The notes under the pieces were generated by a model. The model had not been told where the DNA came from. It saw nothing but the letters and a program-made list of their open reading frames with translations, and ran no database searches. A program made the translations under genes and the position numbers. Source: Luteimicrobium album (GTDB taxonomy: Bacteria > Actinomycetota > Actinomycetes > Actinomycetales > Cellulomonadaceae). From it: 64,000 nt of DNA. The DNA lies in the NCBI RefSeq assembly GCF_030161555.1, contig NZ_BSUK01000001.1, positions 4,030,001 to 4,094,000 on the forward strand. The letters are read 5' to 3'. Below are positions 10,105 through 12,823 of the stretch, piece by piece (positions within the stretch are counted from its first letter, which is position 1; each line of letters opens with the position of its first letter).

Positions 10105-10225
10105 TGACGCGCTGCGGGGCAGCGCGACCGTGCGAGTCTATCCAGGTCGCAGCGCCGGGTCGCGGTTTTGCTAAGGTGGGGCCCGCACGTCGGCCCGACC
10201 GCTGTCCGCGGCGCCGGCGACCTGT

Positions 10226-10296
10226 GCGGATGTAGCTCAATGGTAGAGCCTCAGTCTTCCAAACTGATGACGCGGGTTCGATTCCCGTCATCCGCT
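10226..10296 (+). tRNA. tRNA-Gly (UCC)
   Basis: Acceptor stem GCGGATG pairs with CATCCGC, D-arm GCTCAATGGTAGAGC, anticodon loop CTTCCAA (TCC), T-loop GGTTCGATTCC. CCA is not encoded. A TAAGGT -10-like box lies at 10172-10177. Confidence 0.95.
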
Positions 10297-10339
10297 CCCC
10301 GTTCCCCTCGCGGCCGCCGTCTCACCAGTCGTCGCGCCG

Positions 10340-10369
10340 TTGCAGCATGTGGACACGCGGCGATAGCCT
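10340..10369 (+). promoter_or_regulatory. Promoter of the cysteine operon
   Basis: TTGCAG (10340-10345) and TAGCCT (10364-10369) are spaced 18 bp and would start transcription near 10376, about 35 nt before the leader peptide. Confidence 0.5.
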
Positions 10370-10410
10370 CGACCCGCAGCACACCATCCGCACCCAGGAG
10401 GGATCCGTTC

Positions 10411-10497
10411 ATGGGCGAGGCCCTGACCGGTCACCGCGCGACGACGCGCGGCCTCGTCCTGCGTGCCGCCACCCCCACCTGTCGCTGCTGTCGGTAG
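10411..10497 (+). CDS. Cysteine-rich leader peptide (attenuator uORF)
   Basis: A 28-codon reading frame starting with ATG after a strong AGGAGGG ribosome-binding site and ending in the residues TCRCCR and TAG. Short polycysteine peptides of this kind are known in actinobacteria as cysteine-responsive attenuators upstream of sulfur-assimilation genes: when charged tRNA-Cys is scarce, ribosomes stall at the Cys codons and change the fold of the downstream RNA. The peptide lies 165 bp before cysK and its stop codon overlaps the left arm of a hairpin at 10496-10548. It is shorter than gene finders usually accept. Confidence 0.85.
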   Translation: MGEALTGHRATTRGLVLRAATPTCRCCR

Positions 10498-10548
10498 AGC
10501 GTTGACCTCCGGTCTCCCGGAAGGCTCGCCCGAGCGCGTCAACGCTCT
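10496..10548 (+). promoter_or_regulatory. Attenuator hairpin downstream of the Cys leader peptide
   Basis: Arms 10496-10506 and 10538-10548 are perfect 11-nt reverse complements, separated by 31 nt. The left arm begins in the leader stop codon, so a ribosome stalled on the last Cys codons would cover it and prevent this stem, while one that terminates normally would let it form. The stem is followed by TCTCCCCC rather than a T-run. Which conformer terminates or hides the cysK start cannot be decided by eye. Confidence 0.65.
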
Positions 10549-10662
10549 TCTCCCCCACGCCCGCCGGCGGCCCTCGTGCTGCCCGTGCGGGCCGTCCGGC
10601 ACACCCCGGGCACCTGACCCCACCCCCGCCCTGTCACGGGCCAGCCCACCGAAGAGGAACAC

Positions 10663-11598
10663 ATGGCACGCATCTACGAGGACGCGACGAAGCTCATCGG
10701 CAACACGCCGCTCGTGCGTCTCAACAAGCTCACCGAGGGCCTCGAGGCGACCGTCGTCGCCAAGCTGGAGTTCTACAACCCCGCGAACTCGGTCAAGGAC
10801 CGTATCGGCGTCTCGATCATCGACGCCGCCGAGGCGTCGGGCGAGCTGAAGCCGGGCGGGACGATCGTCGAGGGCACGTCGGGCAACACCGGCATCGCGC
10901 TCGCGTGGGTCGGCGCCGCCCGCGGCTACAACGTCGTGCTGACCATGCCCGAGACCATGTCCAAGGAGCGCCGCGCGCTCCTGCGCGCCTACGGGGCCGA
11001 GCTGGTGCTCACCCCCGGCGCCGAGGGCATGAAGGGTGCCGTCGCGCGGGCCGAGCAGATCGCCGCCGAGCGTCCGGGCGCCATCCTCGCCCGCCAGTTC
11101 GCCAACGAGGCGAACCCGGCCATCCACCGCAAGACCACCGCGGAGGAGATCTGGGCCGACACCGACGGCGCGGTCGACATCGTCGTCGCGGGGATCGGGA
11201 CCGGCGGCACCATCACGGGCGTCGGCGAGGTCCTCAAGGAGCGCAAGCCCGAGGTCAAGATCGTCGCCGTCGAGCCGGCCGAGTCGCCGATCCTCACGGG
11301 CGGCCAGCCCGGCCCGCACAAGATCCAGGGCCTCGGCGCGAACTTCGTCCCGGAGATCCTCAACACCGAGATCTACGACGAGGTCCTCGACATCGACGCG
11401 GACACCGCCGTCGCGACGGCGCGCGCCACCGCCAAGGAGGAGGGCCTCCTCGTCGGCATCTCGTCGGGTGCCGCCATCGAGGGCGCCCTGGAGGTCGCGA
11501 AGCGGCCCGAGAACAAGGGCAAGCTGATCGTGGTGATCGTCCCCGACTTCGGTGAGCGGTACCTGTCGACCATCCTCTACTCGGACCTGCTGGACTGA
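10663..11598 (+). CDS. cysK: Cysteine synthase A (O-acetylserine sulfhydrylase)
   Basis: PLP enzyme that makes cysteine from O-acetylserine and sulfide, 311 residues. The PLP lysine is in NSVKDRIG, the substrate loop is TSGNTG, and the phosphate-binding loop is GTGGT. ATG at 10663 follows GAGGAACAC. It heads a two-gene operon with cysE and is preceded by the polycysteine attenuator, which fits end-product control of cysteine synthesis. Confidence 0.96.
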
Positions 11599-11760
11599 GC
11601 ACCCGACATGACCGGTGTCCTGCCGCGCGCGTCGCGCCCCGTCCCACCCCGACAGGGGGCCGGGACCTCGACGCGCGCGGCGGGCGCCGTCGGCCCCGCC
11701 GCACCACCCGCGGGGAAGCGCGCGGGCGGCCGTGACGTTGCCCCCTCGGGAAGGAGTCGC

Positions 11761-12357
11761 GTGAGCCGTCTGCGCAGTGTCTGGTCCACCGTCCGCGAGG
11801 ACCTGGAGGTGGCGCGCCAGCGCGACCCCGCGGCACGCTCCCTTCTCGAGGTCGCCCTGGCGTACCCCGGCGTCCACGCCGTGTGGGCGTACCGGGTCGC
11901 GCACACCATGTGGCGCAACCCCGCGCTGCGCCTCCCGGCTCGGCTGGTCTCCCAGCTCGCCCGCGCCGCCACGGGAATCGAGATCCATCCCGGCGCCACG
12001 ATCGGCCGGCGCCTGTTCATCGACCACGGCATGGGCGTCGTGGTCGGAGAGACCACGGTCATCGGCGACGACGTCCTCCTCTTCCACGGCACGACCCTCG
12101 GCGGCCGCTCGATGACCAAGGGCAAGCGCCACCCCACGATCGGCGACCGGGTCACGGTCGGCGCGGGCGCGAAGGTCCTCGGCCCCATCTGGGTCGGCGA
12201 CGACGCCCAGGTGGGCGCGAACGCCGTCGTCGTCAAGGACGTCCCACCGGGCGCCGTCGCCGTGGGCGTACCCGCGAAGATCCGCCTCCCGCAGCCGCCC
12301 GCCCGCCACCCCCAGTCGGTCGAGGACCCGTCGCAGCTCATCGAGTACGTCATCTGA
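11761..12357 (+). CDS. cysE: Serine O-acetyltransferase
   Basis: Makes O-acetylserine, the substrate of CysK, from serine and acetyl-CoA. Hexapeptide-repeat left-handed beta-helix sequence is evident ([28 protein letters not shown]) with the catalytic His in IDHGMG. The open frame extends 51 codons upstream, but the GTG at 11761 has AAGGAG in front and gives 198 residues, the usual length of the short actinobacterial form. It is 160 bp downstream of cysK. Confidence 0.93.
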
Positions 12358-12368
12358 CCCTCGCCGTG

Positions 12369-12421
12369 AGTGCGGAGCTTTTGCGCGAGACGCCTGGCGT
12401 GTCGCGCAAAAGTTCCGCACT
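12369..12421 (+). terminator. Terminator of the cysteine operon
   Basis: 20-bp hairpin, arms 12369-12388 and 12402-12421 with one G-U pair and a 13-nt loop, 12 nt beyond the cysE stop. Confidence 0.8.
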
Positions 12422-12436
12422 TAGCGAGAAGTTGTT

Positions 12437-12458
12437 CTAGTAGTAATAGAACTACTAG
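12437..12458 (+). promoter_or_regulatory. Operator of the YtrA-type regulator
   Basis: CTAGTAGT (12437-12444) and ACTACTAG (12451-12458) form a perfect 8-bp inverted repeat with a 6-bp AT-rich spacer, ending 9 bp before the GTG of the GntR gene. AT-rich palindromes at this place are typical autoregulatory sites of YtrA-subfamily GntR repressors. The spacer region could double as the -10 box. Confidence 0.65.
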
Positions 12459-12467
12459 AGTGATGGT

Positions 12468-12823
12468 GTGATCTTCCGACTCGACGTCACGAGCGGCGAA
12501 CCTCTGTTCGCGCAGCTCGCCGCGCAGGCGCGGCTCGCCGTGCTGCGCGGCGAGCTGCGGCCCGGCGAGCGACTGCCCGCCGCACGCGAGCTCGCCCAGG
12601 CGCTCGACGTCAACATGCACACCGTCCTGCACGCGTACCGGGAGCTCCGCGACGAGGGCCTCGTCGAGCTCCGTCGCGGCCGCGGCGCCGTCGTCGCGGG
12701 GCGACCCCCGCCGAGCTCGACGCCGTGCAGGACGCCGTCGCCGCGCTCGTGCAGGCCGCACGCTCCGCCCATCTGTCCGCCACCACCACCACGACCCTCG
12801 TCCAGGAGGCGTTCCAGCGATGA
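12468..12823 (+). CDS. GntR-family regulator, YtrA subfamily, frameshifted
   Basis: Short GntR repressor: winged helix (EPLFAQLAAQARLAVLRGEL, RLPAARELAQALDVNMHTV) with only a short C-terminal dimerisation segment, as in YtrA. The frame breaks in the run of five C at 12705-12709; the second frame continues AELDAVQDAVAALVQAAR...VQEAFQR and gives 118 residues. Its TGA overlaps the ATG of the following membrane protein gene (ATGA), so the two are translated together and the membrane protein is probably the regulated target. Confidence 0.8.

Follow-up and report, generated by a model that had tools for sequence, protein, structure and literature searches.

We analysed a 64,000-nt stretch of the Luteimicrobium album genome (the window, C1:4030001-4094000; the genome is 4.18 Mb and its near relatives are Cellulomonas-like actinobacteria), in which a region of 364 nt leads from a tRNA-Gly gene (10226-10298) to cysK (10663-11598). 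This region carries, in order, a promoter-like pair, a Shine-Dalgarno (SD) sequence, a short leader ORF, a stem, a C-rich spacer and the SD of cysK, followed by cysK itself, with cysE downstream of it:

10340-10369, forward strand: predicted leader promoter, with -35 TTGCAG (10340-10345), 18 nt, and -10 TAGCCT (10364-10369)
10396-10402, forward strand: SD of the leader ORF, AGGAGGG, by sequence
10411-10497, forward strand: leader ORF of 28 codons with an ATG start, MGEALTGHRATTRGLVLRAATPTCRCCR-stop, ending T-C-R-C-C-R-stop
10480-10491, forward strand: putative sensor codons TGT CGC TGC TGT, the penultimate codon being the TGT at 10489-10491
10496-10506, forward strand: left arm of the stem, AGAGCGTTGAC, its first two bases inside the TAG stop (10495-10497)
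10538-10548, forward strand: right arm of the stem, GTCAACGCTCT, making 11 perfect pairs with the left arm
10549-10650, forward strand: C-rich spacer (C > G), a candidate Rho-loading region
10651-10658, forward strand: SD region of cysK, GAAGAGGA, by sequence
10663-11598, forward strand: cysK, cysteine synthase A (TIGR01139, 456.7 bits)
11761-12357, forward strand: cysE, serine O-acetyltransferase (NF041874 / TIGR01172)

A first-pass annotation of this DNA had described a 28-codon frame with a strong ribosome-binding site that ends TCRCCR-stop, and a stop codon overlapping the left arm of an 11-bp stem, and both descriptions were borne out. The leader stop lies 165 nt from cysK, and the GTG start of cysE at 11761 was picked by eye, using the SD GGAAGGAG and homology. 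Taken alone, the fold of the window is modestly unusual (z -1.93, with 8 of 200 shuffles equally good), and the leader peptide matched none of the NCBIfam families. Directly 3' of cysE there is a 20-nt inverted repeat with one mismatch (12369-12388 / 12402-12421), possibly an operon terminator, and the gene past it, from 12468 on, is GntR-like by eye.

cysK was present in 117 of the 121 genomes of the family, and one locus per genome was used, for a total of 110 loci (the genomes with cysK left out of this set were G022, G036, G046, G073, G079, G113 and G119). In 99 of these loci the 600 nt preceding cysK contain an SD-led poly-Cys ORF, as against 4 of 1100 shuffles, which ignore relatedness. 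Our leader finder, which asked for two Cys within the last seven codons, placed 104 of the 110 leaders, and the remaining six were placed via the motif TGTC..TAG[AG]GC; an SD-like word precedes the start in 97 of the 104, as well as in the six placed by motif. The N-terminus, the length (14-43 codons in 100 of the 104 placed leaders) and the last residue all vary, and what is constant is the Cys codon together with the stop. At the penultimate codon, TGT is used by 107 of the 110 loci, TGC by two and AGC by one, so that Cys stands there in 109; the bases from the stop on read TAGAGCG in 91, TGACGAC in eight, TAGGGCG in four and TAGAGCA in two, with five other forms occurring once each. Among the 95 Cys codons of the genes in the window, 11 are TGT and 84 are TGC, and a T stands in third position in 147 of the 2242 leader codons other than TGN. 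Where Cys stands in penultimate position, the next base is C in all but one case (108 of 109 loci).

By motif, the cysK leader is not leaderless. In the window, 41 nt separate the end of the TTGCAG-18-TAGCCT pair from the leader ATG, which suggests that the leader has a 5' UTR. Across the family, a TANNNT word ending 5-27 nt before the start was found in none of the 97 SD-led leaders; within 110 nt upstream such a word is present in 71 of the 97, of which 32 have it at 30-49 nt and 32 at 60-79 nt (no threshold was set on the -35). The first-pass annotation was therefore right, as far as motifs go, in giving this peptide a ribosome-binding site of its own, unlike the leaderless peptides of mycobacteria.

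To assess the stem, we set aside, from the 110, near-duplicates (14 loci) and loci lacking 8 or more stem pairs (also 14), and aligned 55 of the 82 non-redundant loci that were left, a set that leans towards paired sequences because its loci were chosen for having a stem. In these 55 selected loci, 96.3% of the 540 cells at the 10 aligned pairs are paired, versus 86.0% in shuffles, and 62 cells are changed on both sides, versus 19.4 in shuffles, neither value being reached by any of 500 shuffles. Sliding the partner by 1-3 columns lowers pairing in the same loci to 24.5-48.2%. Six of the 10 pairs show at least one two-sided change, a count matched by 66 of 500 shuffles and thus no evidence by itself. 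The variation is unevenly spread: the pairs from alignment columns 12-15 are almost invariant and those from columns 16-21 vary, the base of the stem, GAGCG / CGCTC, being almost constant in sequence and the interior conserved in neither sequence nor length. Two less biased checks, whose shuffles ignore relatedness, gave the same picture: in 87 of 110 loci, versus 169 of 2200 shuffles, a 7-nt word 22-112 nt past the stop is exactly complementary to the left arm (G-U allowed), and 6 or more pairs can form from the stop on in 90 of 104 loci versus 735 of 2080 shuffles. The word GAGCG, a conceivable partner in a mutually exclusive antiterminator, also occurs within the 5' UTR and ORF of 38 of the 104 leaders, versus 17.4 expected by composition, relatedness being uncorrected and no conserved pairing having emerged from it.

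The first-pass annotation had set conservation of the Cys codons and of the two arms in relatives as a test of its proposal. The Cys codon passes in all loci but one, and in the loci aligned the stem persists through compensatory changes; a stem of at least 8 pairs was not found in 14 of the 110, nine of which belong to a single genus, g8, and retain their Cys codons. These nine leaders (L008, L009, L010, L052, L058, L064, L065, L081 and L094) carry TGTCGC TGA at their end, with CGAC or a similar word next, in place of TAG AGCG; the stem is present in the tenth locus of the genus, L046.

Beyond the family, a covariance model of the stem was used to delimit its range. Within the genome of the window its one significant match is the window copy (E 2.3e-7), the next match having an E of 3.1, and cysK adjoins none of three weak matches in that genome. 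Across the order, 33 of 198 genomes match (15 in the family, 13 in f9, two each in f12 and f13, one in f3), and all 33 matches adjoin cysK (30 loci and G248 were checked, G012 and G017 by coordinates). Class-wide, 4 of 394 genomes match, two of them within the family; the other two matches, L228 (E 0.001) and L229 (E 0.008), come from outside the order, lack a cysK in the surrounding stretch and were taken as chance. Searches across more than 40 genomes, as here, used stricter filters that lose weak matches, and scarcity elsewhere is not proof of absence. Among 80 named genomes, a set partly overlapping those of the family and order, 15 carry an SD-led poly-Cys ORF as defined above versus 14 of 1600 shuffles, and 13 of these 15 show TGTCNN-stop (Cellulomonas, Actinotalea, Cellulosimicrobium, Oerskovia and Demequina); no such ORF turned up in the Arthrobacter-type and Microbacterium genomes of this set. 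A re-check by motif of seven more genomes near those genera was positive in six, including Demequina, Actinotalea and Myceligenerans, and found no motif in Pseudactinotalea suaedae. Of 30 family loci inspected (out of 110), 29 have cysE 3' of cysK on the same strand, and the remaining one is cut by a contig end.

How the stem might act was addressed from the sequence that follows it. At most two T are present in the 8 nt 3' of the stem in 101 of 106 family loci. Of the features of trp-type attenuation, the leader peptide with regulatory codons is thus present and the hairpin followed by a U-tract is not, with the exception of L111 (genus g17, 55.8% GC), where the stem runs into CTCTTTTTCT, a true U-tract. 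The scarcity of T is not merely a matter of high GC, because two other loci of moderate GC, L076 (56.8%) and L103 (58.4%), lack a U-tract. An ordinary intrinsic terminator was rejected on account of these U-poor tails; a terminator scan of 10200-12500 reported none, but it allowed loops of 3-8 nt only and was blind to the stem at 10496-10548. The spacer between stem and cysK is strongly biased towards C: its composition in the window is 0.545 C and 0.273 G, and C exceeds G in all of 106 family spacers (49.5% versus 26.9%, the corresponding values upstream of the leader being 37.2% and 33.6%). The C skew of the region upstream of cysK (0.26) is the second highest of 25 upstream regions in the window (mean 0.018). 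Such an excess favours Rho-dependent or U-less termination. For M. tuberculosis, a review calls about 54% of termination sites Rho-dependent and assigns only 2-4% to the canonical hairpin with poly-U; it adds that mycobacterial genes rely mainly on hairpins that lack a U tail. Together, the U-poor tails, the C-rich spacers and these mycobacterial reports favour premature termination of a non-canonical kind, which we hold, with moderate confidence, to be the most likely way in which the stem would repress.

These data suggest that cysK-cysE is likely preceded by a ribosome-mediated cysteine attenuator. The leader mRNA would begin about 35 nt 5' of the SD-led 28-codon ORF, as judged from the promoter motifs. 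When Cys-tRNA is ample, the ribosome would reach the stop and depart, and the stem at the stop would form; covariation speaks for the stem, its timing being our inference. Formation of the stem would then cost downstream expression, most likely through premature termination without a U-tract, either by Rho acting on the C-rich spacer with help from the stem or at the stem itself as a U-less hairpin terminator. When Cys-tRNA is scarce, the ribosome would wait at the penultimate UGU with its leading edge over GAGCG of the left arm, so that the stem could not close and cysK-cysE would be transcribed. The geometry is compatible with such masking: with UGU in the A site, eight nt (UGU CNN UA) precede the first stem base, the G of TAG. 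Standard toeprint distances place the edge of the ribosome about at the end of GAGCG, so that the left arm would be covered over roughly its first five bases. The conserved block TGTCNNTAGAGCG spans the stretch from the A site to the ribosome edge, as fits direct masking of the stem base. A stall at codon -4 or -5 would fall short of the stem; this geometry accounts neither for the additional Cys codons further upstream nor for the C that follows the penultimate codon. A difficulty for the version with Rho is that the stalled ribosome sits upstream of the spacer, and how it would shield the spacer from Rho is not obvious. The earlier reading of the layout as a translation-dependent cysteine sensor nevertheless gains support from the conservation of Cys codons and stem in the family, and from this conservation we conclude that the leader and hairpin probably switch cysK-cysE on under cysteine shortage.

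The same sensor could instead act on translation, the stem or a downstream alternative fold hiding the SD of cysK. Mycobacterial Cys leaders are reported to regulate downstream translation (PMC9031893), and the wording of another report is 'translation attenuation in M. smegmatis' (PMC13236596). In our loci, the cysK SD and start were predicted to be more open when the leader was masked to stop+9 (0.560) than without masking (0.538; 110 loci, up in 40, down in 24, Wilcoxon p 0.024). However, the same masking gave no rise in the window (0.660 vs 0.652), and in the 55 of 110 loci compared with shuffled leaders (every second locus) the cysK start was more open in the real ones (0.595 vs 0.567; 37 of 55 loci). 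The CUCUUC tail in the window could pair with GAAGAG of the cysK SD, but this pairing is kept, among the relatives listed, only in the nearest one. The masking effect, which is small, and the comparison with shuffled leaders thus point in opposite directions, sequestration of the cysK SD finds no clear support, and we regard translational control by this sensor as rather unlikely.

Other explanations dispense with the stalled ribosome altogether. The near-constancy of GAGCG / CGCTC exceeds what a stem needs and would suit a DNA operator for a sulfur regulator, the ORF being incidental, but the right end of the repeat lies anywhere from 28 to 106 nt past the leader stop across relatives, a variability that fits RNA rather than a DNA operator, and conservation extends to the ORF itself, to its SD and to the in-frame TGT at the penultimate position, making an operator highly improbable. 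A metabolite-binding riboswitch with an accidental ORF, to which we give next to no credence, would likewise present a conserved structured leader ahead of a biosynthetic operon; yet no Rfam family, riboswitch or T-box, matched the stretch at the gathering threshold or at E up to 5, the interior of the structure varies in sequence and length, and it is the Cys codons that are conserved. Were the ORF to encode a functional small Cys-rich peptide, the conservation of its SD and Cys residues would be accounted for, but neither the N-terminal sequence nor the length is conserved, and the synonymous choice of TGT, needless for a peptide, is; this too we find barely conceivable. Attenuation by a ribosome waiting at the Cys codons remains our preferred reading.

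Cys leader peptides themselves are already known, and what seems new here is an SD-led Cys leader with a covarying stem. Canestrari and colleagues reportedly described, in 2020, polycysteine leaderless short ORFs of mycobacteria in which ribosome speed senses cysteine. The leaderless Cys ORFs of M. smegmatis are presented as cysteine-responsive attenuators (PMC9031893). The cysK leader resembles this mycobacterial type in that Cys codons directly precede the stop codon of a short ORF ahead of cysteine genes, but differs from it in being SD-led with a 5' UTR, in the stem at the stop codon, in the penultimate position of UGU, in its target, cysK-cysE, and in that SD sequestration is not clearly supported. 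Candidate Cys leaders were also proposed for cys operons of Mycobacterium and P. acnes and for cbs of B. longum (Seliverstov et al., 2005; PMC1262725); these are likewise actinobacterial, have Cys runs near the stop, and Rho was suggested for them, but the relevant passage of that paper reports no conserved terminator-capable hairpin, in contrast to the covarying stem at the stop of the cysK leader. In the same source, ilvB leader ORFs of Actinobacteria overlap a hairpin that a stalled ribosome could block directly, as in the cysK leader, whereas their branched-chain codons and poly-U set them apart; codon substitutions in the S. coelicolor ilvB leader are reported there to be without effect (PMC1262725). 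Attenuation was further proposed for uORFC-8-2 before cysS in Rhodobacterales, which combines tandem Cys codons with RNA stems, but it belongs to another phylum and another gene, has its Cys codons inside the first stem, a U-run and a dominance of UGC (PMC8632094); here the target is cysK and mostly no U-run is found. A passage of a further paper names eight leader peptides and calls none of them cysteine-dependent there, the metL one ending RCMCRRMCAF (PMC8079986). A full-text literature search, with subscription papers mostly outside its scope, gave no SD-led cysK leader for this family among the titles and abstract openings listed.

If true, our reading would mean that ribosomes sense cysteine not only on the leaderless mRNAs of mycobacteria but also, in a family of actinobacteria, on SD-led leaders that carry a defined, covarying RNA stem. 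The fixed spacing from the sensor codon to the stem base would also provide a clean test case for the control of transcription by leader peptides in high-GC bacteria, which seldom use U-tract terminators.

The genome of the window holds a further Cys leader candidate. A leaderless poly-Cys ORF, MTASARPLAPVIPAAVVCAGTRPGMRPVAPCCC-stop (L233 5729-5830; C1:363728-363829), lies about 233 nt 5' of a sulfite reductase gene, upstream of this gene and of a PAPS-reductase-family gene; it ends CCC-stop (TGTTGTTGTTGA) and has a -10, TAGCGT, 7 nt before its ATG, as expected for a leaderless mRNA. Similar leaderless ORFs were found in 14 of 29 family loci under a strict filter, and their last six codons comprise 36 TGT and 7 TGC. 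From the sulfite reductase and cysK leaders, two Cys-leader architectures, leaderless and SD-led, appear to coexist in one genome, both favouring UGU. This also bears on the codon itself: the word CTGTC as the cause of TGT in the cysK leaders was set aside, since TGT is favoured in the leaderless leaders of these 14 loci too, and codon choice is the simpler cause. UGU, which is decoded by wobble, is used in preference to UGC in the leader and probably sharpens the response, and this strong preference makes a testable claim on codon choice in amino-acid sensors. More tentatively, one may picture an attenuator free of any antiterminator combined with shared control, in which a ribosome starved at the one penultimate UGU directly masks five almost invariant base pairs of a U-less stem and so blocks Rho termination in the C-rich spacer, and a single charged tRNA governs two operons via two types of leader, both tuned by UGU; this composite scheme is possible, and we offer it as speculation.

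Elsewhere in the same genome, a second, more distant cysK-like gene adjoins two short ORFs without an SD (L234 927-983 and 1341-1379), which end in ACR and DCCR.
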